Assembly: GCF_030546695.1 (NCBI RefSeq)
Contig: NZ_JAUOTP010000006.1
Location: forward strand, 124,001 to 188,000
DNA from: Sphingomonas natans
GTDB lineage: Bacteria > Pseudomonadota > Alphaproteobacteria > Sphingomonadales > Sphingomonadaceae
Direction: 5' to 3'
Length of the DNA stretch: 64,000 bases
Notes under the pieces: model-generated
Database searches by the model: none
Told to the model about the DNA's origin: nothing
Seen by the model: the letters and a program-made list of their open reading frames with translations, nothing else
Made by a program: the position numbers and the translations under genes
In this document: piece after piece, positions 8,786-26,425 of the stretch
Position numbering within the stretch: position 1 is the stretch's first letter
Layout of the letters: each line of letters starts with the position of its first letter

Positions 8786-8891
8786 GAGCGACAGGCGGGC
8801 CTCGACTTTTGGCGCGGTTGGGGGCAGCAGCAATATTCCAGAGTCGCCGGGGGCAATAGGCGGCACTGAGCACGTACGTTGGGGGGCGGCG

Positions 8892-11800
8892 ATGTTGCGG
8901 AGGCTTATATCGGGCGTGTCTCTGGTTGCGGCCGGACTTGCGTCAACTGCTTCGATCGCGGCGGCGCCGACGCCGATCATCCGCCCCAGCGTCGCCGACA
9001 GTTTCCGCCTGGGCTCGGGCGGCTCCAGCCTCTGCCGCGTCCAGAGCCTCGCGACCAGCCCGGTCTCGCGCGGCATGTTCGATCGCAGCTACGCCATCGC
9101 CTGCCGCGATGCCGCCACGCCCGTCGGCGAGATCCACGTCATCCGCCCCGCAGGCGGGGAAGATCCGCTCGCCCGGCTCCCTGCCGCCAAGTGCGAGCCG
9201 CCCACGACTCAGGCGCTCGACGATGTCGGCGAAGCGAGCGTCGCTCCTTGCGAGGGCAAGCAGGCGGATGTCCCGCTCCGCCGCTACGTCATCCGCCGCC
9301 GCGGCAACGTCTATGTGGCGCAGGGCCTTGCAGGCTATGACAGCGCGCTGACGCTCGCGCTCCGCTCGGTCGTCGCCGATCGCGTGCTGCCGGGCGAGGT
9401 TTCGGTCGCGGTCACCGAGGCCGGCGACGCCGCCGCCTTCGCGCGCGTCCAGGCGGGCAGCCTCGATCTCGATCAGGCGCTGGCCGAGGGCTATCGCCGC
9501 AACAATGGCGGCAATTATGCCGAGGCCGCCGAATTCTTCGACACTTTGCTCCAGCGCCGCTTCTCCTCGGCCGATCCGAACCGGCGCTACGGCGAATATG
9601 TCGTCAACCGCGCGCTCCAGAAATCGAACCTCGGCGAGTTCGCCGAGTCCGACGCGCTCTTCGCCGAGGCGCGCCGCATCCCGACGGCCGACCCGGTCGA
9701 GCTGCGCCTCCGCCGCAATCTCGAGGCGATCAACCATCTGAACCAGGGCCGCCTGCCCCAGGCGCTCGCGATCCTGGCCGCGCCGGTCGCGCCGATCGGC
9801 GGGGTCGAGGTTACCGCCGACCAGATCGACAAGGCGACCTCCGCCGCGATCAACAGCGAAGGGCCGTTCGCGTCCGAGCTTGGCGTCGGCGCGGTCGCCG
9901 CGCTCACGCCCGAGGAAAAGGCCGCGATCCTCGATGCGCAGGCGGTCTCGATCCGCGGCAGCATCTATCGCCTGCAGGGCAAGAATGCGCAGGCGCGCGC
10001 CGCGATGGACGAGATGCTCGGCAAGATCGCGCGCATCCGCGGCGGCAATGTCAGTTCGCTGACCCGCCTGCGCGCGCAGGCGCTCTCCGAAGTCGCACAG
10101 ATTGACGAGAGCGAGGGCAATATTCCCCGCGCCGAAGCGGGACTGCGGCAGTCGCTCGCGATCCTCGATTCCGAATATCCGGGCTCGGCAGCGGTCAATG
10201 CGGCGCGCGCGCGCCTCGGCGCCTTCCTCGCCCGCACCAACCGCACCGCGGAGTCGCTCGCCCTCTACCGCCAGGTGGTCGATGCGATGATCGCCAATGG
10301 CGGCGCGACCGCCGGCTTCGAGGGCCTGCTGGCGCCCTATTTCACGTTGCTCGCGCAGCAGATCCCGACCAATCCCGGCTTGACCGCGGATTTCTTCGGC
10401 GCCGCGCAGACATTGCAGCGCCCCGGCCTCGCCGAGACGCAGGCGATCCTGACGCGCGAGCTTTCGGGCGGTGACGATGCCGCCTCGGCGCTGTTCCGCC
10501 AGTCGGTGACGCTCGGCCGCGAGATCGAGAGGCAGCGCATCACGCTCGCCCGCCTGGCCTCGATCGAGACGCCCACGCCCGAGCAGGCGGCCCTGATCAC
10601 GCAGGGCCGCGATCGCCTCAACCAGCTCCAGGCCGATCAGGTCGGCGTCCAGTCGCGACTCGGCGCCTTCCCGCGCTATCGCGTCGTCTCGGGCCGCATC
10701 TCCTCGCTGCCCGAGCTCCAGCAGACGCTGAAGCCGGGCGAGGCCTATTGGAAACTGCTCGTCGTCGGCGGGCGCGTGTTCGGCTTCTTCGCGGGCCAGA
10801 GCGAGGCGACCGCCTGGGCGGTCCCGCTCGATGCGCCGCAGCTCGAGACGACCGTCGATGCGATCCGCGAGAGCATCGCCGTCACCGTCGACGGCAAGCT
10901 GGAGACGCATCCGTTCGACGTCGCCCGTGCGCGCGCGCTTTACGTGGCGCTCGCCGGACCGCAGGCCGCGGCGCTGCCCAAGGTCAAGCATCTGATCTTC
11001 GAGCCCGACGGCGCGATGCTTCGCCTGCCCGCCAATCTGCTCGTCACCGATCAGGCCGGGGTCGATCGCTATCTGAAACAGGCCGACGATCCCAAGGGCG
11101 ATGCGTTCGATTTCCGCGGTATCGCCTGGCTCGGCCGCGGGATCGAAATCTCAACCTCGGTGAGCCCGCGCTCGTTCGAGGATGTCCGCCGCACCCCGCC
11201 CTCGACCGCCAAGAAGCAGTATCTCGGCCTCGGCCACAATGCGCCGGTGCCGGCGATGGTCCAGCTCACCTCGTTCACGCCGCCCGCCGCGGGCACGCTC
11301 GATTGCTCGTGGCCGCTCGCCGCGTGGAGCAACCCGATCTCGGCCAAGGAGCTGTTCCTCGCGCAGAAGGTGATCGGCACCGACAAGGCCGACGTCATCA
11401 CCGGCGAGCCCTTCAACGACACCGCGATCCGCGACAGCAAGGATCTCGGCCAGTATCGCATCCTCCATTTCGCGACGCACGGACTGGTCGCGGCGCCCCG
11501 CCCGTCCTGCCTCGCGCGGCCCGCTCTGCTCACCTCGTTCGGTCCGACGGCCAGCGACGGCCTGCTGAGTTTCGTCGAAATCTACGATCTGAAGCTCGAC
11601 GCCGATCTCGTCATCCTCTCCGCTTGCGATACCGCCGGCAGCGCCTCTGTCGATGCGACGCGCGAGGCGGGCGTCACTTCGGGCGGCGGTCGCGCACTCG
11701 ACGGCCTCGTCCGCGCCTTCATCGGCGCCGGCAGCCGTTCGGTGCTGGCGACGCACTGGCCCGCGCCCGACGATTATCGCGCCACCGAGCGGCTGATCTC

Positions 11801-11957
11801 CGGCCTGTTCGATGCGCCGCCCGGCACGCCGATCTCGGAGGCGCTGCGCCTGGGACAGGTGAAGCTAATGGACGATGCCGACACGTCGCACCCTTATTAC
11901 TGGTCCGCTTTCGCCCTGATCGGCGACGGCGCGCAGCCCGTGCTGCGGGCGCGCTGA
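8892..11957 (+). CDS. Exported TPR/CHAT-domain protease-like protein
   Basis: A 1021-residue protein. Residues 1-24 are a signal peptide (MLRRLISGVSLVAAGLASTA, cleavage near AAA-AP). Residues about 190-480 are TPR-like helical repeats (for example AEGYRRNNGGNYAEAAEFFDT). The C-terminal third is a CHAT (caspase HetF associated with TPRs) domain with the His/Cys dyad in HFATHG (His863) and LSACDT (Cys912), and the usual terminal YYWSAFALIGDG. CHAT proteases are normally cytoplasmic; this one should be periplasmic or surface-exposed. It is the first gene of a five-gene operon ending in a two-partner secretion pair, with a 10-base gap to the cyclase gene. Proteolysis of the exoprotein or a partner is inference. 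Confidence 0.9.
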   Translation: MLRRLISGVSLVAAGLASTASIAAAPTPIIRPSVADSFRLGSGGSSLCRVQSLATSPVSRGMFDRSYAIACRDAATPVGEIHVIRPAGGEDPLARLPAAKCEPPTTQALDDVGEASVAPCEGKQADVPLRRYVIRRRGNVYVAQGLAGYDSALTLALRSVVADRVLPGEVSVAVTEAGDAAAFARVQAGSLDLDQALAEGYRRNNGGNYAEAAEFFDTLLQRRFSSADPNRRYGEYVVNRALQKSNLGEFAESDALFAEARRIPTADPVELRLRRNLEAINHLNQGRLPQALAILAAPVAPIGGVEVTADQIDKATSAAINSEGPFASELGVGAVAALTPEEKAAILDAQAVSIRGSIYRLQGKNAQARAAMDEMLGKIARIRGGNVSSLTRLRAQALSEVAQIDESEGNIPRAEAGLRQSLAILDSEYPGSAAVNAARARLGAFLARTNRTAESLALYRQVVDAMIANGGATAGFEGLLAPYFTLLAQQIPTNPGLTADFFGAAQTLQRPGLAETQAILTRELSGGDDAASALFRQSVTLGREIERQRITLARLASIETPTPEQAALITQGRDRLNQLQADQVGVQSRLGAFPRYRVVSGRISSLPELQQTLKPGEAYWKLLVVGGRVFGFFAGQSEATAWAVPLDAPQLETTVDAIRESIAVTVDGKLETHPFDVARARALYVALAGPQAAALPKVKHLIFEPDGAMLRLPANLLVTDQAGVDRYLKQADDPKGDAFDFRGIAWLGRGIEISTSVSPRSFEDVRRTPPSTAKKQYLGLGHNAPVPAMVQLTSFTPPAAGTLDCSWPLAAWSNPISAKELFLAQKVIGTDKADVITGEPFNDTAIRDSKDLGQYRILHFATHGLVAAPRPSCLARPALLTSFGPTASDGLLSFVEIYDLKLDADLVILSACDTAGSASVDATREAGVTSGGGRALDGLVRAFIGAGSRSVLATHWPAPDDYRATERLISGLFDAPPGTPISEALRLGQVKLMDDADTSHPYYWSAFALIGDGAQPVLRAR

Positions 11958-11967
11958 GAGGAAATCG

Positions 11968-14001
11968 ATGGCGACCGAAGCACTGCCGGCTCCGGAGCCT
12001 ATCGAAGTTCCGGCGGCGAAGGCGATCGCGCGGATGGTCCGCCGGATCGGCGCGCGCCAGCTGATCGGCACGATCCTCGTCATGAGCGTGGCGTTGCTCT
12101 TCGCGCGCTACAGCTGGTCGCTGCCGCTCGGCGTCGATGCCGAACATGCGCTCTACGACGTCCGCCTGCTGATGACCTCGCAGCGCATTCCCCAGGATCC
12201 GCGCATCGTGATGGTCGTCTATACGGACGAGACGCTCGAGGCGACCGCGCGCCGCTCCCCGCTCGATCGCGGCCTGCTCGCCAAGGCGCTGACCAATCTC
12301 GACAAACTGGGCGCCAAGGCGATCGGCATCGATATCCTGATCGATGAGCCGCAGCCCGAGGACGACCAGCTCGTCGCCGCCTTCCGCGGCATGAAGACGC
12401 CCGTGCATCTCGCCTTCGCGGGCAATGCCACGAACGGCGTGTTCGTGCAGCCGTGGCAGGAAGACTTCATGCGCAAGTTCCAGGCGAGCCTGAAGCCGGG
12501 CAATGTCTGGCCGACCTCGATCCGCGTGGAAGCCGATCCCGATGGCGTGATGCGCAGCTGGCCGACGCGCCCTCCGGGCCTCCCGCCTCTCCTCTCCAAC
12601 GCGATGGCGAAGCACGACAAGCGCTTCGAGGATTATCATGGCAGCCTGCTCTACCGGCTGCCGCAGCGCGCCGACCGGCCGGTGTTTTCGAAGCTGCCGA
12701 TCGATCTGTTCGCCCTGCCCGAAGCGGCGGAGATGCTGCGCAGCCAGATCCAGGGGCGCTATGTGCTGATGGGCGGGGACATTTCGGACGTCGACCAGTT
12801 CGATACGCCCGCGACCCGGCTCAGCAAGGAGGGCGAATCCGGCACCACCACCGGCCTCGAAATCCACGCGACGATGCTCGCGCAACAACTCGACAATCGC
12901 ATCCCGCGCCGGATCCTGCCGACCGCCTTGTGGGGCGCCGCGCTGCTGGTGGTCGTGGCGGCGGCGATGGCGGGCTTCACTGAGCTTTCGGCCGCGCGCA
13001 ACGCGGTCGTCATCGTCGGATCGCTGGCGCTGCTCATCGCCACGCCGCTCATCCTCCAGCGCGCGGGCTTCGATACGCAGCGCCTGCCGATGTTCGGCTG
13101 GCTAGGCGGCTGGGTGCTCGCCTTCATCGCCTCGTCCGCAGCGGGCCGCGCGGTCAGTTCGGACGAGCGGCGCTTCGCCCAATCGGCGCTCGGCAAATAT
13201 CTGCCCCCGGACGTCGCCAAGCAGATCCTGCGCGATCCGGACAAACTGGCCCTGCACGGCGAGCAGCGCGAGATCTTCGCGATGTTCACCGATCTGGAGG
13301 GCTTCACCCAGCTGTCGTCGCAGATCGCGCCGGCGATGGTCGCGCAATTGCTCAACCGCTATCTCGATCTGCTGTCGGATGTCGTGCTCGAACATGGCGG
13401 CACGCTCGACAAGTTCGTTGGCGATGCCGTGATCGCCTTCTGGGGCGCGCCCATCTCCCGGCCCGACGATGCCGATCGCGCGGTCAAGGCATCGATGGCG
13501 ATGTACGCGGCGGGCGAACGCTTCCGCCGCGAGGCGCCCGCCGGCGTCCCGCCGATCGGCCGGACGCGAGTCGGCCTCCACATGGGCGTCGCGATCGTCG
13601 GCAATTTCGGCGGCGAGGGCCGGATCCAATATACCGCGCTCGGCGACAGCATGAACGCCGCCTCCCGGCTCGAGAGTGCGAACAAGAAGCTGCATACGAC
13701 CCTGCTGGTGAGCGGCGATGTCGTCGCCCGCTCGACGCTGAAATGCTTCCGCCCGATGGGCCGCATCACCGTCCGCGGCCGATCCGAGACGCCGATGGCG
13801 ATCTACGAGGCGCTGCCGGATTGCGATCTGGAGCAGGCCGCGGCGCTGACCGACATCCTCGCCCGCTTCGATGCCGGCGACGCGAGTGCGATTTCGTCGC
13901 TCGAGACGCTGATTTCGCAGAACCCGAAGGACTTGGCGCTCGTAAATCTGCTAGAGCGTCTACAAAGACTTGGCCCTGGAGGCAGTTATGCACTCGACTA
14001 A
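11968..14001 (+). CDS. CHASE2-domain class III adenylate cyclase
   Basis: A 677-residue membrane-bound cyclase. Residues about 33-50 form the first membrane helix, 55-310 a periplasmic CHASE2 sensor domain, 320-400 a set of three membrane helices, and 430-625 the catalytic domain. Metal-binding Asp442 (MFTDLEGFT) and Asp486 (KFVGDAVIAFWG) are present. Purine-selecting Lys482 and Asp560 and the transition-state pair Asn563/Arg567 (LGDSMNAASRLE) argue for ATP and an active enzyme. It follows the CHAT gene by 10 bases and overlaps the next gene by 14. It probably reports an envelope signal as cAMP; the signal is unknown. Confidence 0.93.
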   Translation: MATEALPAPEPIEVPAAKAIARMVRRIGARQLIGTILVMSVALLFARYSWSLPLGVDAEHALYDVRLLMTSQRIPQDPRIVMVVYTDETLEATARRSPLDRGLLAKALTNLDKLGAKAIGIDILIDEPQPEDDQLVAAFRGMKTPVHLAFAGNATNGVFVQPWQEDFMRKFQASLKPGNVWPTSIRVEADPDGVMRSWPTRPPGLPPLLSNAMAKHDKRFEDYHGSLLYRLPQRADRPVFSKLPIDLFALPEAAEMLRSQIQGRYVLMGGDISDVDQFDTPATRLSKEGESGTTTGLEIHATMLAQQLDNRIPRRILPTALWGAALLVVVAAAMAGFTELSAARNAVVIVGSLALLIATPLILQRAGFDTQRLPMFGWLGGWVLAFIASSAAGRAVSSDERRFAQSALGKYLPPDVAKQILRDPDKLALHGEQREIFAMFTDLEGFTQLSSQIAPAMVAQLLNRYLDLLSDVVLEHGGTLDKFVGDAVIAFWGAPISRPDDADRAVKASMAMYAAGERFRREAPAGVPPIGRTRVGLHMGVAIVGNFGGEGRIQYTALGDSMNAASRLESANKKLHTTLLVSGDVVARSTLKCFRPMGRITVRGRSETPMAIYEALPDCDLEQAAALTDILARFDAGDASAISSLETLISQNPKDLALVNLLERLQRLGPGGSYALD

Positions 14002-14746
14002 TCTTCGCGCGCCGCATTTTGCGGCAGTGGCTCTTCTCGCGGCGGCCATCGCTGCCCCGCTGTCGGCGGCGACGCTGGTCGTCCGCTCGGCCGGGCCCTC
14101 CGCCGGTGCCTATCCCCCCGGCAAGGTGCTCCAGCCGACCGCCAAGCTGGCGCTGAAGGCCAATGATCTGGTCACCCTGCTCGACGAGCATGGCACGCGC
14201 ACGCTGCGCGGGCCCGGCAGCTTCACCGCGACCGCGACCGCGGCGGCCGATGCCGACGGCGGCAACACCGCGATTGCGGCGCTCGTCTCGCAGCGCGGCG
14301 ATCGCCGCGTCCGCATCGGGGCCGTGCGCGGCGTCGAGAGCGACACGGGCCGCCCGCCCAACATCTGGTTCGTCGATGCCTCGCGCGCGGGCACGGTCTG
14401 CGTCGCCAATCCGGCGGCCGCCAATCTGTGGCGCCCCGGCAGCGAGGCTCCCGCCAAGACGATGATCGCCAGCGTCACGGGCGCGAGCAAGGCGACCGTC
14501 GATTGGTCGCCGGGGCAGGCCGTCCAGGCATGGCCCTCGGCGCTTCCCATCGCGGAGGGCGCCCGATACAGATTGACGACGGGGACGGCAGCGCCGGTCG
14601 AGATTCGCATGACATTGAGCGGCGAACCGAAGCCGGACGTGCAGGGAATGGCGTCCGCCTTGATCGCCAAGGGCTGCACCGCGCAGCTCGATCAGCTGGT
14701 CGAGACGACGGCTGCGGCGACGAAGGCGAGCGGCGGGGCGAATTAG
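13988..14746 (+). CDS. Exported FecR-like protein
   Basis: A 252-residue protein with a signal peptide (cleavage near residue 28, after PLSAA). The following region resembles a FecR-type domain: LVVRSAGPSAGAYPPGKVL, ANDLVTLLDEHGTRTLRGPG, then a Thr/Ala-rich strand. Two cysteines (VCVANP and KGCTAQ) could form a disulfide. The ATG at 13988 is preferred over 13970 because GGAGG lies 7 bases upstream. It overlaps the cyclase stop by 14 bases, which suggests translational coupling. In other CHAT/CHASE2 clusters small FecR or DUF928-like proteins occupy this place. No enzymatic role is visible; ligand sensing or scaffold is inference. Confidence 0.72.
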   Translation: MHSTNLRAPHFAAVALLAAAIAAPLSAATLVVRSAGPSAGAYPPGKVLQPTAKLALKANDLVTLLDEHGTRTLRGPGSFTATATAAADADGGNTAIAALVSQRGDRRVRIGAVRGVESDTGRPPNIWFVDASRAGTVCVANPAAANLWRPGSEAPAKTMIASVTGASKATVDWSPGQAVQAWPSALPIAEGARYRLTTGTAAPVEIRMTLSGEPKPDVQGMASALIAKGCTAQLDQLVETTAAATKASGGAN

Positions 14747-14804
14747 GCGCCGGACGGAATGACGGCGGCATAGCGCGGCTGGGAGGCCGCGTCGGGGGGT
14801 ATGG

Positions 14805-16601
14805 ATGCGGCGTGACGGGGGCGTTTGGCGTAAACGGATCGGATCGGGCGCGGCTGCGCTCGTCGCGTCCGCATCGGTTGCTCCGGTCCAGGCGCAGAGC
14901 ATTCCTACCGCCCCGACCCGCGAGGCGATCCAGCGGGCCGCTCCGATCGAGGAAGGCGCCGCGCCGCCTTCGAAGCTGACCGTCGACGGCGGCATCGAAC
15001 GCGCGCCCTGCCCGCTCGCCGAACCGCGCTTCGCGGGCGTCACGGTCGATTTCAAGGGCGCGGTATTCGATAATCTGAAGGGCCTGACCCCCGAGGATCT
15101 GGCCTCGGCTTATGCCGATTTCGTCGGCAAGAAGGTGCCGATCGCCGCGATCTGCGACGTGCGCGATGCCGCCGCCACGATCCTGCGGCGCGCGGGCTAT
15201 ATCGCCGCCGTCCAGGTGCCGCCGCAGCGCATCGCCGACGGCATCGTCCATTTCGATGTGCTGATGGCGAAGCTCGTGCGCGTGCAGGTGCGCGGCGATG
15301 CCGGCCATTCCGAGAAGCTGCTCGCCGCCTATCTCGACAAGCTCACCGCGCAGCCTTTGTTCAACGAGAAGGAGGCCGAGCGCTATCTGCTGCTCGCGCG
15401 CGATCTGCCGGGCTATGACGTGCGCCTGACCTTGCGCCCCGCCGGCACCGCGCCCGGCGAAGTGGTGGGCGAGGTCATCGCCAGCCGCATTCCCTATGTG
15501 GTGACCGCCAATCTGCAGAATTACGGCAGCCACCAAGTCGGCCGCTGGGGCGGGCTGATCACCGGCCAGGCGAACGACCTGCTCGGCTTCGGCGACCGGC
15601 TCACGCTCGGCCTGTTCCAGAGCCTCCAGACGCGCGAGCAGACCGTGCTCCAGTCGGGCTACGACATCCGCGTCGGCGGCGAGGGCCTCACCATCGGCGG
15701 ACGCTTCACCTATGCGTGGACCCGGCCGAGCGTCGGCCAGGGCGATCCGCTCAAATCGAAGACGCTCGTCGCCTCGCTGGAGGCGAGCTACCCGCTCCGG
15801 CGCTCGCAGGCATCGAACATCCGCCTGAGCGGCGGCGGCGATCTCGTGAATCAGGATCTGCGCTTCAACGACGTGCTGCTGACGCGCGACAATCTGCGCG
15901 CCGCCTATCTGCAGCTCGATATGGACGCGACCGATCCGCACAGCATCACCGGCGGCGGCGGCTATTCGAGCATCCTGCCGCGCTGGCGCGTCTCGGGCAC
16001 GTTCGAAGTGCGGCGCGGGCTCGGCATCTTCGGCGCGAGCGAGGATTGTGGCGCCGCGCCGCTCTACACGTCGTGCGCGGCGGGCGTCTCCCTCAGCCGC
16101 ATCCAGGCCGATCCGACCGCCACGGTCGTGCGCTTCACCGGCTTCGGCGAAGTCCGCCCGCGCCCCAATATCGGCATCGCCTTCTCGCCCCGGCTCCAAT
16201 ACGGCTTCTCGCCGCTGATGAGCTACGAGCAATATTCGGGCGGCGCCTATACGATCGGGCGCGGCTACGATCCGGGCGCGATCATCGGCGACAGCGGCGC
16301 GGGCTTCTCGATCGAGGGCCGCTACGGCACGCTCCTGCCGCGCAGCCGGACGAGCTTCGCCTTCCAGCCTTACGCCTTCTTCGACGCGGCCTGGGTGTGG
16401 AACCGGCGGACCTTGGTGGCGGAGAACGACCCTCTCAAGCTATACTCGATCGGCGGCGGCCTGCGCATCGCTTATGGCGATCGCGGGCGGCTGGACATCA
16501 CCGCCGCGACGCCTCTGAAGAAGGCGCCGAACGATCTCCAGCGCGGCGACACGCGCGTGATGGTGTCGCTCACGACCCGTCTCATTCCGTGGGGTAGGTA
16601 A
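14805..16601 (+). CDS. Two-partner secretion transporter (TpsB, ShlB/FhaC/HecB family)
   Basis: A 598-residue outer-membrane protein that exports its TpsA partner. Residues 1-31 are a signal peptide ending VQAQS. Two POTRA domains cover about residues 70-160 and 163-240. The 16- or so-stranded beta barrel fills the rest, with the Omp85/TpsB loop-6 motif in YTIGRGYDPGAIIGD and barrel strands ending in the final Arg of LIPWGR. Its TAA stop overlaps the TpsA start by one base (TAATG), so the pair is translationally coupled. GGGGGG precedes the start by a few bases. FhaC-like function is well supported by the position next to the exoprotein gene. Confidence 0.92.
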   Translation: MRRDGGVWRKRIGSGAAALVASASVAPVQAQSIPTAPTREAIQRAAPIEEGAAPPSKLTVDGGIERAPCPLAEPRFAGVTVDFKGAVFDNLKGLTPEDLASAYADFVGKKVPIAAICDVRDAAATILRRAGYIAAVQVPPQRIADGIVHFDVLMAKLVRVQVRGDAGHSEKLLAAYLDKLTAQPLFNEKEAERYLLLARDLPGYDVRLTLRPAGTAPGEVVGEVIASRIPYVVTANLQNYGSHQVGRWGGLITGQANDLLGFGDRLTLGLFQSLQTREQTVLQSGYDIRVGGEGLTIGGRFTYAWTRPSVGQGDPLKSKTLVASLEASYPLRRSQASNIRLSGGGDLVNQDLRFNDVLLTRDNLRAAYLQLDMDATDPHSITGGGGYSSILPRWRVSGTFEVRRGLGIFGASEDCGAAPLYTSCAAGVSLSRIQADPTATVVRFTGFGEVRPRPNIGIAFSPRLQYGFSPLMSYEQYSGGAYTIGRGYDPGAIIGDSGAGFSIEGRYGTLLPRSRTSFAFQPYAFFDAAWVWNRRTLVAENDPLKLYSIGGGLRIAYGDRGRLDITAATPLKKAPNDLQRGDTRVMVSLTTRLIPWGR

Positions 16602-19600: not shown

Positions 19601-22600
19601 GGGACCGGCTATGGCGGTTCCATCTCGCTCGTCGCCAATAGCGGCAACATCACAGCCAACGGATCGAGCACGTTCGATACGCGCGGCTATGGCGGCAATC
19701 AGCCCAATGGTGTGGCCGGCTTCGGCTTCGGCGGCGCCCAGTCGATCCAGGCTGTGGGCGGCGGCACGGTCAATCTGGCGGCCACGCAGATCGAGGCGAG
19801 TGGCACGGGCGGGGACGGCGTGACCGGCGGCAACGGCCTCGGCGGGGCCGTGACCCTCTTGGCCGACAATGGCACCTTCAACGCGACCTCCACGCTGCAG
19901 ATCAACAGCAGCGGCTTCGTCGGCAGCTCCCAGTCCGGCATCGCGCAAGGCACGGGCGGGGCAGTGATCGTGCGCGCCAATGCCGGCAGCTTCACGTTCG
20001 CCGACACTCTCGGCATCGATACCACCGCCAACAGCAACGGCGCCGGCGGCGACATCACGATCGAGGCGATCGGCAGCGGTCCGCTGTCGCAGGACTCCGT
20101 TATTCTCGGCGCGACCGATCTCGATGCGTCCGCGGGCTTCAGCCCAGGCGCCGGCGCGGGCGCGGGCACGATCACGATCCGCAACATGTCGAGCACGGCG
20201 CTGAACTTTGCCGATGTCACCGCTAATGCGCTGGGCAGCAGCGCCGACGCGCCCCGGATCGTGCTGGAATCCGGCAGCAATCGGATCAACGGCAGTCGGA
20301 TCGAACTCAACACGGATGCGGGGTTGACGGTGACGGCCGTCACGCCCGGCGGCGGCATCTACGCCAGCGGCAATTTCATCACGTCCGCCGCGGGTTCGAC
20401 GATCATTTCGGGCTATGGCGTCGACCCGACGATCCAGGCCGCGAATATCGACATCGAATATTACGACCTGACCTCGTCCAGCAGTTTCCTCAACGCGATC
20501 GGCGCGGACAGCGATACGGGGTACATCTCGGTTCGCGGCTATGGCGCCATGCAGCTGGGCCAGCTTCGCGCGACCAACGGCATCGAACTGATCGCAGGCA
20601 CCGACATCACCGTCGACGGTGCCTTCGTCACGGCCCCCGCAGTGTTCGACGGCTCGGGCAATCTCGATACCTCGATCGGCTATTTCCGCGCCGAGGCCGG
20701 CTCCTATGAGGGCAATTTAGGAAGCATCACCTCGAACGGTGCGGTGACGGTGCTCAGCGCCTCGGCATCCTCCCGCGTCAGCCTCTATGCGCGCGGCAAC
20801 ATCACCGTAGCGGGCCAGGTCGATTCGCAGAATCTGATCGACATCAGCGTCGGCAACGATCTGGTCGTGACGCAGAACGCGCAGATCAACGCCAACACCG
20901 CGCCGCTCTCGGCCTCCACCGGCGGAATCTCGTTCCAGATCGGCAATGGCTATGGCGACCCCGGCGATCCCTCTAGTTTCATCAGTTCGGGCTCGATCAA
21001 CGCCAACGGCACCCCACTGGCGATCTATGCCGATGCCATTCAGGCGAAGACCGGGACTTTCGCCGGCAGCAGCGTCACCTTCGGGCTCAACGGCAATGCC
21101 GTCTCGGGCGATGACGGCGGGCAGCTGACCGCCGACTGCACCGCGGGCTCGCTGTGCCTGGGCAACATCAATGCGACCGAGTCGATCCTCGTCGATTCGT
21201 CGAACAGCATACCGACGACGGTGACGCTCGCGGGCACGATCTCGGGTGCCGACCTGACCGTCATCGCCGGCGGCGTCATCCTCGGCAACAACGGCGTCGT
21301 CAACGACATGCTGCTGAGCAGCTATGCGTCGCTCGATGTCGATACGGGCGCGATCACCGGGGCGATCGGCGGCAGCGGCACGCTGACCGCCTCCGACATC
21401 TACATCCGGGCATCGTCCGTCTCGGCGACCAATTTTGGTTTTGCCACAAGCAGCGGCGATTTCGCCGCCAACGTCACCGGCGGCATCGAAGTCGGCACGC
21501 TGGATATTGCCGGCCGCCTCGGCAGCCGGCCGGACGGTTTCGCCAACGGCCTGAACCTGGCCGGTCCCTTCGCGGCGATCAATCGGCTCTCGGTCGGCAG
21601 CGACACGATCGACATCACCGCAGCCGGCATCACGATCGGCCAGATGATCGGCAGCGGCGACGCGCGCTTGGCGGCCCCGGGCAACACGATCATCGTGAAC
21701 GACGTGCTCGTACCGGGGGTCGTCTCGGCATCTGGCACCCTGATCAATCTCGGGTCGAGCGGCAATCTGGCCATTGACGACTTGACCGGGGGCAGCGGCG
21801 GCACGACGCTGCTCGCCGCGGGCACCCTGTCTCTCACGAACGTCACGAGCACAGGGCCGCTCATCGTGACCGGCAGCAGCGTCGATGCCAATGTCGGAAC
21901 GCTCACCTTCACCCAGCTGAACACGACCGCGGGCGACGCGAACGTGACGGGCACGGGCAATCTCGTCGTCAACGGCGGCAATGCGATCGGCTCGGTCTTC
22001 TTCAGCGGCTCGGGCGTCACCGCGACCAACTATAGCGCGACGCAGGACATCACGCTGGCCGGCACCACGATCGGCAATTTCTCGAGCCTCACCGGCCGCA
22101 ACATCTCGATCACCGCGCAGAGCGGGAGCTTCGGCGGCACCGCGCTGAACGCGTCGGGCACGACCTTCCTGTCGGCGCCGATCAACGTCTCGGTCTCCGC
22201 GCTGAACTCGACCGGCGGCGTCACCGCCAATGCGCGCGGGCTCCAGCTGATCGCGCCCGCTGCGATGACCGTGACGAGCGCGACCGCCGGCACCGGCGGC
22301 ATGACGCTCAGCGCCGGCGGCCAGCTCATTGTCGCCAGCGCGACGAGCGGCGCGGACATCGTTCTCGAAAGCGCCAACGCCGGCATCGCCGCGCAGACGA
22401 CCTCCTCGACGACCGGAACCGCCATCCGCGCGCCCGGCGCGGTGACGGTCGCGAGCCTGACCTCGGGCGGCAACGTCAGTGCGCAGGCCGGTAGCCTGCA
22501 GATCGTCTCGCCCGGCGCGCTGACCTTCTCGCGCGCGATCGCTACGAACGGCGGCATCAGCGTCACGACGCAAGGCGCACTGACCGTGCTCGCGGGCACC

Positions 22601-25600
22601 CAGAGCATCCCCAACCCGTCGGCAACGGGCGACAGCAGCTTCGTCGCGAGCGGCATCCTGACGCTGCCGACCTTCACGACGCCAGGCAACCTTTCCCTGC
22701 AGGGCAATTTCATCGGGACCTTCACCGCGCTGTCGGGGGCGAACGTCTCGCTCGTCGCCCAATCGGGCAGCATCGGCGGCCAGACGCTCACTGCGAGCGG
22801 CACGACCTTCCTTTCCGCGCCGACCAACGTCTCGGTCTCCGCGCTCAACTCGGCGGGCGGCGTCACCGTGAACGCGCGCGGCGTCTCGCTGTTCGCACCG
22901 GGCGCGTTGACCGTGACCAGCGCGATCGCCGGCCCGGGCGGCATGACGCTCAGCGCCGGCGGCCAGCTCACCGTCGCCAGCGCGACGAGCGCGGCGGACA
23001 TCGTCCTCGAGACCACGAACGGCGGCATCACCGCACAGACCATCTCCTCGACGACCGGCACCGGCATCCGCGCACCTGGCGCGGTGACGATCGCCAGTTT
23101 GACCTCGACCGGCAATGTCGGCGTCCAGGCGGGCAGCATCCAGATCGCGTCGCCCGGCGCGCTGACCTTATCGCGCGCGATCGCCACGAACGGCGGCATC
23201 AACGTCACGACGCAGGGCGCGCTGACCGTCCTGCCGGGCCAGCAGCAGATACCGAACCCGTCGGCGACCGGCGACAGCAGCTTCATCGCCGGCGGCCAAC
23301 TGACGCTCACGACCTTCGCGACGCCGGGCAACCTGACGCTTCAGGGCAATGGCATCGCGGCCTTCAATACGCTGTCGGGCGCCAACGTCTCGCTCGTTGC
23401 CGCCAGCGGCGCGATCTCAGGCCCGTCGCTGACGGCGACCGGCACGACCTTCCTCTCGACCCCCGGCGCGATCAACATCTCGGCGCTGCGCTCGAGCGGC
23501 GCGGTCACCGCCAGCGGCAGCCGCATCACGCTCGTCTCGCCCGACGCGCTCACGATCGCGAACTTCACCACGGCGCAAGGCGATGCGAGCTTCCAGTCCG
23601 CCAACCTGCTCACCGTCGCGGACGGCACCAGCGCCGGCGCGCTGGCGATGACGAGCACCGGTGCCGGCCTGACCGTCGGCACGGTCAACGCGGCAGGGGC
23701 GGTGACTGGCAATGCGGCCGGCGCGATCGGCTTCGGCCAGATCAGCGGCGACACCGTTTCTCTCTCCACGTCCGCGGGCGGCATCACCGGCCAGCGGCTC
23801 GCTGCGACCGGCGCCGCGACGCTCAGTGCGCCAGGTGCGATCGCCGTCTCGGGCGATTTCCGTGCGGCGAGCGCCAGCGTCAGCGGCTCGAGCGTCGCGA
23901 TCGCCTCGACCAGCGACCTGACCTTCGCCACGCTATCGGCAACAAGCGGCGACGCCGTCGTCACCACCTCGGGCGCGCTCACCGTCAACGGCGGCAGCGC
24001 GGCCGGCGCGGCCAATCTTGCGTCGGGCGGCACGCTGACGCTCGCTTCCTATACGAGCGGCACCGACCTCGTCCTGTCCGGCGCGCGCCTGCCGACCTTC
24101 GGCACCCTGTCGGCGCGCAATATCAGCCTGACCGCGCTCGCAAGCGATCTGACCGGCGGCACCTTGATCGCCAGCGGCACGACGACCCTCTCCTCTTCGG
24201 GCGTGCTGACGATCACCGACCTTCGCTCCGCAGGCGCCGCCACGTTAAGCGGCGCCACGATCAATGTCGGTTCGACCGTGGCGCTCAACGTCGCCAATGC
24301 GACCGCAGGCGACGGCGGGCTGCGCCTGCGCTCCACCGGCGCGCTGACCGTCACCAATGCCACAAGCCAGGCCGGCGTCGATCTCGCCAGCACCGGCGGC
24401 AACGTCACGGTCGGCCGGATCGCGATGACCGGCACCCCTGCAATCACGACGCAGGCGGTAGCCGGCACCTCGCCGCTCACGATCGCCTCGGCCGGCACGA
24501 CGACGCTCACCGATGCGATCACCGGCGCGGGCGCGGCGACGATCAGCGGCACGAGCCTCGTCCTCAACGGTCTGATCGACGCGAGCGGGATCAGCCTGGC
24601 CTCGCAGACGATCGCAGTCGGCCCCGCGGCGCTGATCGGCACGCTCCAGCGCACCGGCACCGTCGCCTTCACCAACAGCGGCACCGGCCGCAGCTTCATC
24701 GGCGGCACAGGCAGCCAGAGCGGCTATTCGCTCGACGGCGCCGCACTCTCGCGCGTCCAGGCGAGCTCGGTCTCGCTCACGCTGCCGAGGACCGCGACCA
24801 GCTCCGTCGCCAATCCCGACGTCGTCATCGGCGCGCTCACGCTCTACGGCACGGGCGCGGCCGCCCCTCAGGGTGCACGGCAGAATCTGGGCACGGGCCT
24901 GCTCACGATCACGACGCCCGGGCAGGTCCAGGTCAACGGCGCGGTCCGGCTCGCCAATCTCGCGACCGGCGGCAGCGGCGGCCTCACCGTCCGCGCGGCG
25001 GGCATCGATGTCGTCGCGCCGAACGGATCGATCGTCCAGACCGACGCTGCCGGCACCCCCGCCGGCACGCTGGAGCTCGACGGACGCAGCGTGCGCGTCG
25101 CCAGCAGCAGCGCGCTCGCCGACCTTGCCACGCTCGCCACGCCGACCGAGCGCGAGGCGCGGCTCGCGCAGAATGACGGCAATATGAGCGACACGGGCTG
25201 GCTCAGCGCGAACACGATCCGCTTCGCTTATCCGTCGGGCGTCGCCGCGACGGGCGGGATCGCGGCCATCTACGTCCAGAATAGCGGCGGCTCCGGGTCG
25301 GCGGCGCGGCGCGGCCTGACGACGGGCACGGGCGGCGTCGTCATCGCCAATTTCCCGACGAGCGATATCCCCGAGGTGTTCATCAACGGCCGCCTGCAGA
25401 CGACCCCGACGACCTTCGTCACCGGATCGGCCTTCCTCGCAAGCATCTCGCAGGTCGGCACGGGAACGGCGAGCGACATCCTCGTCAACGGCTGCGTGCT
25501 CTCGAGCGGCCTGTGCGGCGGCGCGCCCACGCCGCTCACCTTGCTCTCGCAACTCGCGCCACCGCAGGATCTGATCGGCGTGATCAGCAACTCGACCGAG

Positions 25601-26425
25601 GATGACGAGGACGAGGATACGAACAAGCCGGGCGATCCGGTCCCGAGCAAGGATCCGCAGGCGATCGTCCAGTTCGCGCCGGCAAACCCCGAGGCCGCCA
25701 GCCAATCGACCGACGATCCCGTCATCGGCTCGGGCAATGAGAGCCTGTGGACCGGTGGCGGAGCGGGCGCGGGCGAAGCGGGCGGCGTGACGCCGTTCGA
25801 CACGACGATCGGCGTCGGCAACGATGCCGGCGCACCCGACAACGGCCAGCCGCGCACCACCGGCGGTGCGACCGGCGGCACGGGCGCACCGCAACAACCC
25901 GGCGAGCGCGCGACGGGCGTGAACCCGGCGACCGAGGGCGGACTCGGCATCGGCAGCGATGCCGCCGCGGGCGGCGAGCAGCGCTCCGGCGCCGGCGGCA
26001 CGAGCGGCAATGCCGGCGCCGCGGGCGCGATCAATACCCCGAACACGCCGGCGACGCCGGGCAGTGTGCCGAACAATGGTGGCGGCGTCGGCGTCGGCGC
26101 GGACACCGGCGGCGGCGCACCGGGCGCGGCCGGTTCCGGCAACGCGGGCACGGCCCTGCCCGGCGCGGCGCAGGGCACGACCGGCGGCAGCACGACCGGC
26201 GACACGACCAACGGCCGTCCGAACACCGGCAACGGCGCCGGCGCGAATGCCGGCCAGGGCGCGCCGACCACCGAGCAGACGACGGGCACCGGCGGAGACG
26301 CGGGCGCGTCGGGTTCGGCCGGCACCGCCGGCACGCCGGGCGGCGCAGCCGGCACGACGGGCCCCTCCGCACCCGGCACGACCAACAACGGCACCCGCCA
26401 GACGACGCCGAACACCCCGCGCTAA
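16601..26425 (+). CDS. Giant filamentous hemagglutinin-like exoprotein (TpsA)
   Basis: A 3274-residue secreted protein. An extended signal (about 43 residues, basic TRRRKLELY then a hydrophobic core, ending AQA) is followed by a TPS domain (about 45-250) with NVWFYSPGGILVGSGASFNV, the counterpart of the NPNG motif region. The body is Gly/Ser/Thr-rich beta-helix repeat sequence. Residues about 1845-2272 are a near-perfect 214-residue tandem duplication. Cysteines come in pairs (YCGFNC, DCTAGSLC, and Cys2965/Cys2972). An acidic EDDEDED linker near residue 3000 leads to a Gly/Asn/Thr low-complexity tail of about 230 residues. Partner of the TpsB before it; adhesin or matrix function is inferred. 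Confidence 0.9.
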   Translation: MRSTDPKTPAKLGTRRRKLELYATAAIGGLSVFFMETPPSWAQAINATGIGRYNLAQNTTSATVTLNSGNATNIQVNTSQAIIDWNIPGGAGDYQFLNANTTATFYNSSGAYTVLNVLNGGTRAMRFDGAVVARTGGVTGAIGGNVWFYSPGGILVGSGASFNVGSLLLTTLNPDPNNLPGQNFSSFNDGTNGNTIGLRTDTNIFPTNNTSQIQIAAGATLTAQNYIGIVAPRIVQGGTIAPKGALGLIAGEQVNLDISSDGGLFGISIPVGSNFAGDADDSANVAILQSGTISGTFSGNGAPTKRNIYMVAVPKNTAITMLLTAQMGYGFESSNAVVTAQGIVLLAGTGVGTAINTAAPDGLGYTSPIDSVKTGQIRISGGSDFRSRVTTAGTRTEAFAQTGNINFRLPSTLYGTQVASLDIASGQTVTTVGMGVRSGITRADGSFDALGSSATVTVAGTLRIDPNGILSIDASSTGVIALDGVTNSGVGGSVTGGTTTLTINDGTIEGTTPGTTGGLITLLADASGGGGTSGGGTAVGGAANVTINGGTFDGTGLSLSARAIGGDDETVAAGLATGGTVSVTLQAGATQPRLHTTGDLALTATATGGSAYCGFNCHDGSGLLIGAPGTPAGNAVGGTATVTMGAVGGAIQVVNLNLDVSAIGGGGGLAIGTGPDGYYNAAPGGQGSGGTAKIVQSGGDITALGIALTAEGRGGLGGDASFDDYGQFDQTGNAGNGGIGQGGILEVRLSNAARIIGQSGSTLSLSGFGLGGGGGTAAYEGAFMGVGGIGRGPLAGNPVRITLADTASITRDTVTLTGAGYGGNGRDHSDATAGDGGAAFGNDVIVEATSAGGAQFIATTLELDSSAQGGTGGFGSNISTGGNATGGTSTIAFTGAALTTTTTQIYATGQGGAGGSPSSSGAQGISVSGDAVITATNALLALGTANIYTYANGNGFDGEYGTNGFAGDITISTLSGAGINAGSGFNLQAYAYGGAGSLGAGTGYGGSISLVANSGNITANGSSTFDTRGYGGNQPNGVAGFGFGGAQSIQAVGGGTVNLAATQIEASGTGGDGVTGGNGLGGAVTLLADNGTFNATSTLQINSSGFVGSSQSGIAQGTGGAVIVRANAGSFTFADTLGIDTTANSNGAGGDITIEAIGSGPLSQDSVILGATDLDASAGFSPGAGAGAGTITIRNMSSTALNFADVTANALGSSADAPRIVLESGSNRINGSRIELNTDAGLTVTAVTPGGGIYASGNFITSAAGSTIISGYGVDPTIQAANIDIEYYDLTSSSSFLNAIGADSDTGYISVRGYGAMQLGQLRATNGIELIAGTDITVDGAFVTAPAVFDGSGNLDTSIGYFRAEAGSYEGNLGSITSNGAVTVLSASASSRVSLYARGNITVAGQVDSQNLIDISVGNDLVVTQNAQINANTAPLSASTGGISFQIGNGYGDPGDPSSFISSGSINANGTPLAIYADAIQAKTGTFAGSSVTFGLNGNAVSGDDGGQLTADCTAGSLCLGNINATESILVDSSNSIPTTVTLAGTISGADLTVIAGGVILGNNGVVNDMLLSSYASLDVDTGAITGAIGGSGTLTASDIYIRASSVSATNFGFATSSGDFAANVTGGIEVGTLDIAGRLGSRPDGFANGLNLAGPFAAINRLSVGSDTIDITAAGITIGQMIGSGDARLAAPGNTIIVNDVLVPGVVSASGTLINLGSSGNLAIDDLTGGSGGTTLLAAGTLSLTNVTSTGPLIVTGSSVDANVGTLTFTQLNTTAGDANVTGTGNLVVNGGNAIGSVFFSGSGVTATNYSATQDITLAGTTIGNFSSLTGRNISITAQSGSFGGTALNASGTTFLSAPINVSVSALNSTGGVTANARGLQLIAPAAMTVTSATAGTGGMTLSAGGQLIVASATSGADIVLESANAGIAAQTTSSTTGTAIRAPGAVTVASLTSGGNVSAQAGSLQIVSPGALTFSRAIATNGGISVTTQGALTVLAGTQSIPNPSATGDSSFVASGILTLPTFTTPGNLSLQGNFIGTFTALSGANVSLVAQSGSIGGQTLTASGTTFLSAPTNVSVSALNSAGGVTVNARGVSLFAPGALTVTSAIAGPGGMTLSAGGQLTVASATSAADIVLETTNGGITAQTISSTTGTGIRAPGAVTIASLTSTGNVGVQAGSIQIASPGALTLSRAIATNGGINVTTQGALTVLPGQQQIPNPSATGDSSFIAGGQLTLTTFATPGNLTLQGNGIAAFNTLSGANVSLVAASGAISGPSLTATGTTFLSTPGAINISALRSSGAVTASGSRITLVSPDALTIANFTTAQGDASFQSANLLTVADGTSAGALAMTSTGAGLTVGTVNAAGAVTGNAAGAIGFGQISGDTVSLSTSAGGITGQRLAATGAATLSAPGAIAVSGDFRAASASVSGSSVAIASTSDLTFATLSATSGDAVVTTSGALTVNGGSAAGAANLASGGTLTLASYTSGTDLVLSGARLPTFGTLSARNISLTALASDLTGGTLIASGTTTLSSSGVLTITDLRSAGAATLSGATINVGSTVALNVANATAGDGGLRLRSTGALTVTNATSQAGVDLASTGGNVTVGRIAMTGTPAITTQAVAGTSPLTIASAGTTTLTDAITGAGAATISGTSLVLNGLIDASGISLASQTIAVGPAALIGTLQRTGTVAFTNSGTGRSFIGGTGSQSGYSLDGAALSRVQASSVSLTLPRTATSSVANPDVVIGALTLYGTGAAAPQGARQNLGTGLLTITTPGQVQVNGAVRLANLATGGSGGLTVRAAGIDVVAPNGSIVQTDAAGTPAGTLELDGRSVRVASSSALADLATLATPTEREARLAQNDGNMSDTGWLSANTIRFAYPSGVAATGGIAAIYVQNSGGSGSAARRGLTTGTGGVVIANFPTSDIPEVFINGRLQTTPTTFVTGSAFLASISQVGTGTASDILVNGCVLSSGLCGGAPTPLTLLSQLAPPQDLIGVISNSTEDDEDEDTNKPGDPVPSKDPQAIVQFAPANPEAASQSTDDPVIGSGNESLWTGGGAGAGEAGGVTPFDTTIGVGNDAGAPDNGQPRTTGGATGGTGAPQQPGERATGVNPATEGGLGIGSDAAAGGEQRSGAGGTSGNAGAAGAINTPNTPATPGSVPNNGGGVGVGADTGGGAPGAAGSGNAGTALPGAAQGTTGGSTTGDTTNGRPNTGNGAGANAGQGAPTTEQTTGTGGDAGASGSAGTAGTPGGAAGTTGPSAPGTTNNGTRQTTPNTPR
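22133..23416 (+). repeat. 642-bp in-frame tandem duplication inside the TpsA gene
   Basis: Unit 1 (22133-22774) and unit 2 (22775-23416) encode two 214-residue blocks that align without gaps, including SAPxNVSVSALNS, GGMTLSAGGQL, GALTFSRAIATNGG against GALTLSRAIATNGG, and IPNPSATGDSSF. A degraded third copy starts after 23416 (ATGTTFLSTPGAINISALRS). The spacing was measured between matching GGCGGC sites. Confidence 0.85.

Follow-up and report, generated by a model that had tools for sequence, protein, structure and literature searches.

The window, a stretch of 64,000 nucleotides of Sphingomonas natans DNA, carries five same-strand genes at 8892-26425, spaced by +10, -14, +58 and -1 bases, just as the original prediction described. 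These genes and their main features are as follows.

8892..11957, + strand: 1021-aa CHAT protein, probably exported; hydrophobic start, TPR-like repeats, CHAT domain
11478..11480, + strand: catalytic His863 of the CHAT domain, placed by alignment
11625..11627, + strand: catalytic Cys912 of the CHAT domain, placed by alignment
11968..14001, + strand: CHASE2 adenylate cyclase, 677 aa; CHASE2 between two hydrophobic stretches (N-terminal and 315-366), then a class III cyclase domain
13291..13425, + strand: cyclase segment from metal-binding Asp442 (13291) to Asp486 (13423), with Lys482 between; placed by conservation, roles presumed
13988..14746, + strand: small protein of 252 aa with a hydrophobic start; predicted to have two domains, in no Pfam family
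14399..14401, + strand: Cys138 of the small protein, which may form a disulfide with Cys230
14675..14677, + strand: Cys230 of the small protein, invariant together with Cys138
14805..16601, + strand: TpsB outer-membrane transporter, 598 aa; POTRA_2 and ShlB
16601..26425, + strand: TpsA giant exoprotein, 3274 aa
16892..17293, + strand: residues 98-231 of TpsA, its TPS secretion domain (NF012204, TIGR01901)
25493..25516, + strand: Cys2965 and Cys2972 of TpsA (NGC-VLSSGLC), a C-terminal pair similar to the HMW1/HxuA anchor
25718..25750, + strand: tail motif of TpsA, residues 3040-3050 (PVIGSGNESLW), conserved in relatives

The five genes are presumably co-transcribed; simple scans of 8600-16700 gave no promoter-like sites above shuffles and no excess of terminator-like sites over shuffles.

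The first protein matches the CHAT family over residues 679-1012 (PF12770, 1.2e-49, Pfam). Its description as an exported TPR-CHAT protein stands for the CHAT domain and for the hydrophobic start, located at residues 5-24 by a simple hydropathy scan; the tetratricopeptide repeats fall below Pfam cut-offs, yet over positions 274-468 the CHAT family profile matches kinesin light chain repeats of solved structure. The His863/Cys912 dyad, predicted to be intact, is found at these positions and is invariant in 29/29 aligned CHATs, and in an alignment of 150 rows it is kept in all 112 that cover both columns, the other 38 being gapped there. Six further cysteines (48, 71, 101, 120, 805 and 873), also invariant in 29/29 aligned CHATs, would suit an oxidising periplasm and, together with the hydrophobic start, suggest that the protein is probably exported. 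By domain and dyad it is a clan CD protease, of predicted activity. For most of the CHAT and caspase homologues that bacteria export, we know of no assigned substrate.

The second protein combines a CHASE2 domain (3.9e-27) with a Guanylate_cyc domain (1.2e-16, both Pfam). Residues D442, K482, D486, T556, D560, N563 and R567, which we take to be the catalytic residues, show conservation of 97% or more across 79 sequences, in agreement with the claim that the active site is complete; a preference for ATP is assumed. The third protein was announced as small, exported and FecR-like. Export is suggested by a hydrophobic start, seen in a simple hydropathy scan, and by Cys138 and Cys230, invariant in three alignments (22, 67 and 29 rows); its AlphaFold2 model has a pLDDT of 83.8. 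The FecR label, in contrast, fails, and by sequence the protein is not FecR: at E <= 1, PF04773 matches neither the window's small protein nor 67 close members nor the 29-row class-wide set, and in the same genome it matches six other places, the small-protein locus not being among them. DUF928 as a remote relative found no backing in one weak comparison, which gave an hhalign probability of 0.13%, for a 5-row mixed alignment in which only two rows are shown to be DUF928.

The claimed secretion pair is borne out by ShlB (PF03865, 8e-16) and POTRA_2 (PF08479, 4.3e-7) matches in TpsB (Pfam) and by a TPS-domain match in TpsA. In the NCBIfam protein scan, the filamentous-haemagglutinin N-terminal domain models NF012204 (3.4e-6) and TIGR01901 (1.2e-4) both stay below cut-off, while TIGR01901 is just over it in the genome scan (29.4 vs 29.1 bits). 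By these domains and by adjacency (the two genes overlap by 1 base), TpsB and TpsA are a two-partner secretion pair, with export predicted.

The C-terminal module of TpsA, a Cys pair followed by a conserved tail motif, looks new. In relatives the tail mostly reads PVTGAGN[DE]D[LF]W, typically DDPVTGAGNDDLW; in the window it is followed by 224 mostly low-complexity residues. Among 33 complete named TpsA, the motif is recovered by pattern in 30, with two more variants read by eye, and the Cys pair in 31; one sequence, L232, has an unlike tail at its end, perhaps through a frameshift. Motif and Cys pair are both absent from 16 frames of other secretion loci (17 control regions, 16 of which gave a frame, L262 and L266 at least probably not being TpsA frames). 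A first set of 22 CHAT-linked TpsA, some of them C-terminal parts only, has the strict motif in 13 and the Cys pair in 18. Searched as DNA, the strict motif occurs once in each of 9 of the 98 related genomes, against 0 for the reversed control. Its restriction to CHAT-linked TpsA points to a contact between TpsA and CHAT.

The module recalls HMW1/HxuA, in which TpsB and TpsA likewise occur together, a Cys pair lies near the TpsA C-terminus and, in the part of the source available, the disulfide-locked C-terminus is left in the periplasm (PMC5422565), where that of the window's TpsA would also be expected. The likeness is one of Cys pattern. Unlike HMW1/HxuA, the window has a caspase-fold protease and a cyclase alongside, and a motif-bearing tail after the Cys pair. 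By analogy, the tail motif should lie in the periplasm, alongside the protease.

These features suggest that the surface protein is controlled by CHAT acting on the anchored TpsA tail, the CHASE2 cyclase turning the state of that protein into cAMP; we give this reading a probability of roughly 0.45. In such a scheme, whose disulfide, tail location, cleavage, contacts, signalling direction and regulator we infer, TpsB would export the giant TpsA until a disulfide loop formed by the Cys pair stalls it in TpsB, leaving the exoprotein on the surface and the tail PVTGAGNxxLW in the periplasm. The exported TPR-CHAT protein would bind this tail and, when triggered, cut at or near it, so that the exoprotein would be released or remodelled. 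The small exported protein may sense the tail or the protease and report to the periplasmic CHASE2 domain; the cytoplasmic cyclase domain would then make cAMP, and a cAMP-binding regulator would set expression.

In the Lap system, the LapA adhesin is served by LapG, a periplasmic cysteine protease, and LapD, a c-di-GMP receptor. The proposed logic is alike: a giant anchored surface protein, a periplasmic cysteine protease and an inner-membrane second-messenger protein. The locus is nevertheless not a Lap system, the parts being unrelated: the exporter is TpsB, of a two-partner and not a type I secretion system, the protease is a CHAT and not of LapG type, and a cAMP cyclase stands in place of the c-di-GMP receptor. 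The five-gene set seems to control a cell-surface protein in a manner not yet described; in line with the original prediction, no description of the arrangement was found in the open PMC library, covered mostly below full-text level. Here one such CHAT, probably exported, has one candidate substrate, marked by a short conserved tag, so that its target can be put to a direct test. To our knowledge, ligands of CHASE2 domains are mostly not established; if the proposed control is real, CHASE2 gains a defined protein partner, and two-partner secretion would seem able to come under second-messenger control.

The five genes recur in the same order at 55 of the 80 named loci, which are almost all sphingomonad; the 80 loci are the best of 105 from one peptide pattern, lean to sphingomonads and share some contigs with the 98 relatives, so that the two sets are not independent. 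Gene divergence is correlated over the 55 loci (rank correlations 0.73-0.85), which species history gives likewise and which is not counted as evidence. Three more genomes hold the same five genes in permuted order at ~24-33% identity. The cyclase and the small protein travel as a pair. Several observations count against control of TpsA by CHAT and the cyclase: in 22 of the 80 named loci the cyclase pair stands without CHAT or TPS in the available stretch, the strict tail pattern is missed in 9 of the 22 CHAT-linked TpsA, all with CHAT, and tail pattern and Cys pair are absent from the permuted five-gene loci L054-L056 and from L101, though CHAT is present.

The 98 relatives hold 46 CHAT places (one in two pieces), 42 of which were examined. 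All 26 closer ones adjoin a TpsB and a TpsA-type frame, as against 0 of 16 weaker ones for a two-partner secretion pair (Fisher 6e-12); several of the 16 have short flanks or contig ends, and the four weakest places (G046:C1:130552, G007:C4:1100987, G090 and G058) are left out of the count. No closer CHAT was thus found apart from the secretion pair, in keeping with the predicted bond between them. As a side observation, G007:C4:1100987 lies ~200 bases from a TPS-domain match. The loci annotated with the small profile models had also served to build these models and, as 7 or 8 first-look candidates were scored in most genomes, CHAT and small-protein counts are possibly too low.

The cyclase is tied to CHAT at the level of whole genomes, also where the two are unlinked. 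The cyclase pair is unlinked from CHAT in 9 of 18 genomes, which counts against the proposed control; 8 of these 9 hold a CHAT-secretion locus elsewhere, and the ninth has at least a tailed TpsA. CHAT and the cyclase pair are both present in 17 of the 98 genomes, either one only in 1 each and neither in 79 (Fisher p 7e-17, shared ancestry ignored; p 1.1e-12 in a family table with 40 'neither' genomes). G043, a CHAT genome without the small protein, is a further point against. A three-gene CHAT-TpsB-TpsA clade is nested inside the five-gene clade, which implies that the cyclase pair left the operon there, and all four of its genomes still keep the pair.

The five genes are therefore a real unit. 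That unrelated genes merely lie side by side is extremely improbable: conserved flanking genes (nitroreductase, CysRS, cytochrome c554-HbpS) do show that the site itself is kept in synteny, but the permuted gene orders at low identity, the retention of the cyclase pair after relocation and the contrast between closer and weaker CHAT places argue against it. Of these flanks, nitroreductase and CysRS were named by eye; the multiheme cytochromes and HbpS near the cyclase pair may reflect synteny of the site rather than a direct link. In Sphingobium herbicidovorans MH, where pMSHV carries the same five genes, annotation places a Crp/Fnr gene immediately upstream, in favour of a cAMP-binding regulator. 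Near some loci cNMP-binding-like genes were named by eye; none was noticed beside the window's operon, a point against the model. The name prepilin peptidase was likewise given by eye.

The same counts bear on another reading, in which CHAT serves as a housekeeping protease of the periplasm and clears TpsA that has stalled, while the cyclase pair senses envelope stress only and is kept for expression control, with no regulated release. The constancy of the CHAT-secretion bond, set against a cyclase pair that can be unlinked, fits this quality control, as does a second TpsB-TpsA-CHAT locus in the same genome with no cyclase or small protein beside it. A housekeeping protease, however, has no obvious need of a near-invariant short tail motif, and the 17/1/1/79 pattern ties the cyclase pair to CHAT even where unlinked; we regard this alternative as unlikely.

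Elsewhere in Alphaproteobacteria, outside the window's family, 24 of 43 small-protein places have a caspase-fold domain, either CHAT or Peptidase_C14, no more than 6 kb away, vs 0.5 expected, an association that looks new. Against the model, no such domain is found within 6 kb at the other 19 of the 43, and no cyclase is near at 7 of 39 small-protein places, several of the places being on short contigs. What is kept more widely in the class is a core of the small exported protein and the CHASE2 cyclase, which a caspase-fold protease often accompanies, whereas the secretion pair as partner is confined to sphingomonads and a few other bacteria. The tail could be a docking or sorting tag only, CHAT being a binding and assembly factor that cuts another substrate, such as the small protein or CHASE2, and thereby switches the cyclase, with the exoprotein as sensor arm. 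This is doubtful but finds some backing in the 24 places above, in clan-CD domains near the small protein also where no secretion pair is seen, and in fusions of CHASE2 to CHAT in Anabaena and, in the accessible portion of a published account, to a metacaspase (PMC3501461). Against it, the motif was found only in CHAT-linked TpsA, which points to contact between the two.

The proposed action of CHAT on TpsA can also be set in a broader frame, which we hold tentatively and with the odds leaning against it: an undescribed alphaproteobacterial envelope module of exported caspase-fold protease, Cys-bridged small protein and CHASE2 cyclase, tied in sphingomonads to a TPS giant, whose cutting would lead to cAMP, through the periplasmic C-terminal tag PVTGAGNxDLW. 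If true, bacteria would have an equivalent of regulated ectodomain shedding, carried out by a caspase-like protease. Because the small protein, the CHASE2 cyclase and the caspase-fold protease associate across the class, a wider envelope-signalling role is suggested for such proteases.

CHAT is a known effector fold, and an outside attack on the exoprotein might trigger CHAT and cAMP so that the cell is killed or arrested. The cyclase domain does score with Pycsar models (PycC 6.1e-32, PADLOC), and some CHAT-secretion loci lie beside type VI secretion genes (in part by annotation, in L051/L053 by eye). Such a defence role is nonetheless very unlikely: CHAT is probably exported and not cytoplasmic, no defence genes were noticed by eye around the locus, and the PADLOC match, from a scan of four proteins, concerns the cyclase catalytic domain only, with none for CHAT, the small protein or TpsB.

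Parts of the set, rather than its whole, are encountered in other systems. In the available text on Sinorhizobium, the CHASE2 cyclases CyaK/CyaD1/D2 act with the outer-membrane protein NsrA (PMC7529298, PMC13001267) and drive a CRP-type regulator, Clr, with a FecR-domain protein among its targets (PMC7529298, PMC13001267, PMC5498481). Unlike the window, that system has no TPS named in these portions, and 'CHAT' and 'caspase' are absent from PMC5498481. The Burkholderia BiofilmReg operon also sets an exported FecR-domain protein beside a CHASE2 sensor, but this is a true FecR with LysM, accompanied by a histidine kinase and a response regulator, and no protease or TPS is named in the accessible part of the source (PMC5192318). 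Craspase Csx29 is a protease that carries both TPR and CHAT and has its own dedicated partner; as far as the source extracts go, it is CRISPR-associated and RNA-guided (PMC10028731), whereas the window's CHAT is probably exported and secretion-linked.

The predicted parallel in cyanobacteria is also encountered, with CHAT, CHASE2, haemagglutinin, DUF928 and ShlB gathered on Anabaena cylindrica and Nostoc plasmids, among six hand-picked plasmid matches, two of which were chosen for their ShlB match. TpsA, CHAT and CHASE2 come together as in the window, but DUF928 replaces the small protein and CHASE2 is fused to CHAT, no cyclase domain being found in the Anabaena CHAT-CHASE2 protein. On the A. 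cylindrica plasmid a haemagglutinin-CHAT arrangement faces DUF928 and the CHAT-CHASE2 fusion, and two Nostoc plasmids carry the order haemagglutinin-ShlB-CHAT.

The operon lies at 8892-26425 on the forward strand, and the positions and spacings of its genes (10, -14, 58 and -1 bases) are confirmed as originally predicted:

8892-11957, +, CHAT protein
11968-14001, +, CHASE2 cyclase
13988-14746, +, small exported protein
14805-16601, +, TpsB
16601-26425, +, TpsA

Pfam supports CHAT in the first protein, CHASE2 together with a class III cyclase domain in the second, and POTRA and ShlB in TpsB; His863 and Cys912 are both found in the CHAT protein, and TpsA displays a weak TPS domain match. The name "FecR-like" proposed for the third protein fails the sequence test (PF04773), and no Pfam family matches this protein. 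Its model (pLDDT 83.8, pTM 0.76) comprises a predicted β domain at about residues 29-80, a second at about 135-210, which aligns to Ig/FN3-like folds, and C-terminal helices. No convincing match was found among solved structures. Across three alignments, no variation is seen at Cys138 or Cys230. A divergent gene immediately upstream of the operon (8048-8784) appears by eye to be prepilin peptidase-like.

The Sphingomonas natans genome contains two CHAT genes, two TPS-domain matches and three CHASE2 genes. Both CHAT genes are located at the TPS matches, one in the window and one on contig C7, where the order is TpsB-TpsA-CHAT and no cyclase pair adjoins. Besides that of the operon, one CHASE2 gene (contig C6) lies about half a kilobase from a same-strand PF04773 FecR (neighbouring frame identified by eye), and another (contig C11) adjoins a Peptidase_C14 caspase (E 6.8e-35). 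This second CHASE2 cyclase, next to the caspase gene at L097:9179-12691, is 48% identical to that of the window.

CHAT matches occur in 24 of 98 related genomes (18 with E < 1e-40). The analysis covered 42 of 46 CHAT places: the window, C7 and 40 regions, far sides included. At 26/26 places with E < 1e-36, CHAT is accompanied by a TpsB recognised by its profile and by a large frame of TpsA type. The TpsA profile is silent at several of these, which are assigned from TIGR01901 matches and from the giant frame adjoining TpsB. L052 has its secretion genes on the strand opposite to CHAT, and at L056 TpsA extends past the contig end. Neither TpsB nor TpsA was detected by profile at the 16 weaker places covered (0/16). 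Of the four places weaker still, one (G007:C4:1100987-1101675) is a weak match about 200 bases from a TPS-domain match and may be another CHAT-TPS locus type or a fusion. The order CHAT-cyclase-small protein-TpsB-TpsA is found in six genomes; CHAT-TpsB-TpsA and TpsB-TpsA-CHAT also occur, as do permuted five-gene sets at L054, L055 and L056 (identity about 24-33%). To note, TpsB-TpsA-CHAT sets are found within or next to type VI secretion clusters, annotated on an S. parapaucimobilis plasmid (L103) and judged by eye at L051 and L053.

The small protein yields 20 matches in 18/98 genomes, and a CHASE2 cyclase neighbours it at 19. The exception, L063, adjoins CHAT. This minimal form (L063:7157-11207) places CHAT directly next to the small exported protein, with no cyclase or secretion pair found within the stretch. 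CHAT (E < 1e-40) and the small protein occur together in 17 genomes, CHAT only in one (G043), the small protein only in one (G024) and neither in 79 (Fisher 7e-17; 1.1e-12 within the family; both uncorrected for shared ancestry). The G024 genome is 85% complete and still carries a TpsA frame, cut short by the end of a contig, that has the conserved tail motif. The pair of small protein and cyclase lies inside the CHAT-TPS locus in nine genomes and exclusively elsewhere in nine. On the tree of CHAT proteins, the four loci of CHAT-TpsB-TpsA type group as a single clade nested in the five-gene clade, which indicates that the pair was lost from the operon and kept in the genome. Loci share nitroreductase and CysRS flanks (named by eye and afterwards serving as queries), which shows them to occupy one and the same place on the chromosome.

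In the species-genome collection, where the best 80 of 105 relatives were retained (judged by title, mostly Sphingobium, Sphingopyxis, Novosphingobium, Sphingomonas and Blastomonas), the check for conserved order suggested in the original prediction finds the complete five-gene set, arranged as in the window, at 55/80 loci, a count obtained again in two further analyses. The cyclase adjoins the small protein in 79/80. Among the other 25, 22 have the pair without CHAT or TPS in the stretch covered, L208 and L212 are cut off on one side by a contig border, and at L223 the small protein stands alone. Plasmid pMSHV of S. herbicidovorans bears the five genes, annotated, in the same order, with a Crp/Fnr gene directly upstream. 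Tandem small-protein duplicates downstream of the cyclase are seen at L192, L196, L201, L203, L211 and L225, mostly Novosphingobium judging by title.

TpsA bodies are highly variable and the C-terminus is conserved: an NGC...C pair is followed by PVTGAGN[DE]D[LF]W, which in most cases lies 15-50 residues before the C-terminus. Of the 33 named TpsA that are complete, 30 match the motif pattern and 31 have the Cys pair; two more (L191, L204) have the variant PVIG[IV]GNEDVW. The window TpsA has Cys2965/2972 and PVIGSGNESLW at 3040-3050, a variant outside the strict motif, with 224 residues beyond it. At the DNA level, 9/98 genomes contain the strict motif, each a single time (reversed control, 0); seven of these matches were read in a long frame, while G029 fits by position and G017 via L202. 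The 22 CHAT-linked TpsA (window, C7, 17 relatives and three plasmid records) display the motif in 13 and the Cys pair in 18; the 16 frames read from other secretion loci display neither. In HMW1 and HxuA, as described in PMC5422565, a C-terminal disulfide loop locks the end in TpsB and the terminus is periplasmic. By this precedent, the tail motif should be periplasmic, in the compartment that an exported CHAT would occupy.

Across the class, the small protein is found in 41/385 Alphaproteobacteria, including 39 that do not belong to the family of the window. In 40 regions fetched, the profile finds it in 39, with a CHASE2 cyclase within 4.5 kb in 32/39. A Pfam CHAT or Peptidase_C14 domain lies less than 6 kb away at 24/43 places (0.5 expected from domain density), the nearer domain being CHAT at 12 and Peptidase_C14 at 12; none lies within that distance at 19/43. 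These counts identify the small protein and CHASE2 cyclase as the more widely kept core, often accompanied by a caspase-fold protease, with secretion as one partner. In Niveispirillum cyanobacteriorum, the row comprises TpsB, a 2937-residue frame, CHAT, the small protein, the cyclase and a cNMP-binding-like gene. Such cNMP-binding-like genes stand near the small protein at 9/39 (by eye; two queries were taken from these loci); those beside the cyclase at L101:20350-20796, L144:4721-5215 and L157:8828-9502 are, by appearance, candidate cAMP receptors. In L160:7321-9222 and L161:2407-4404 the small-protein domain is embedded in a longer protein, the former also harboring DUF4384. Cytochrome c554, HbpS-like and multiheme cytochrome genes downstream of the pair or five-gene set (L100:30121-33458, L091:1-8428, L092, L093) perhaps reflect site synteny, or could form an electron-transfer conduit.

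Control of the Lap adhesin follows the same logic as the mechanism proposed here, although the parts are unrelated. Sinorhizobium offers a precedent, its CHASE2 cyclases acting together with an outer-membrane protein. PMC3501461 reports a Trichodesmium metacaspase-CHASE2 fusion whose protease is thought to face the cytoplasm, whereas that of the window is probably exported. In the open PMC library, CHASE2 and FecR are mentioned together in three papers, and CHASE2 and caspase in seven. The seven include PMC3501461, PMC8195603 and two reviews or surveys of cyanobacterial caspases (PMC2853523, PMC7475262) that may hold related remarks. No full text in that library joins "CHAT domain" with "two-partner secretion", CHASE2 or FecR. 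The parts themselves are known. Within the scope of that library, their combination, the tag at the TpsA tail and the association seen across the class seem not to have been described.

The cyanobacterial gatherings cited in the original prediction are borne out among the six plasmid matches examined. One weak profile comparison saw no relation between the sphingomonad and cyanobacterial small proteins. Calothrix has DUF928, CHASE2 and TIR opposite CHAT; two Nostoc plasmids carry haemagglutinin-ShlB-CHAT, one other plasmid haemagglutinin-CHAT, and the sixth two CHAT genes only. On Anabaena pANACY.04, haemagglutinin-CHAT faces DUF928 and a CHAT-CHASE2 fusion, a single protein joining both domains (L273:10360-12777).
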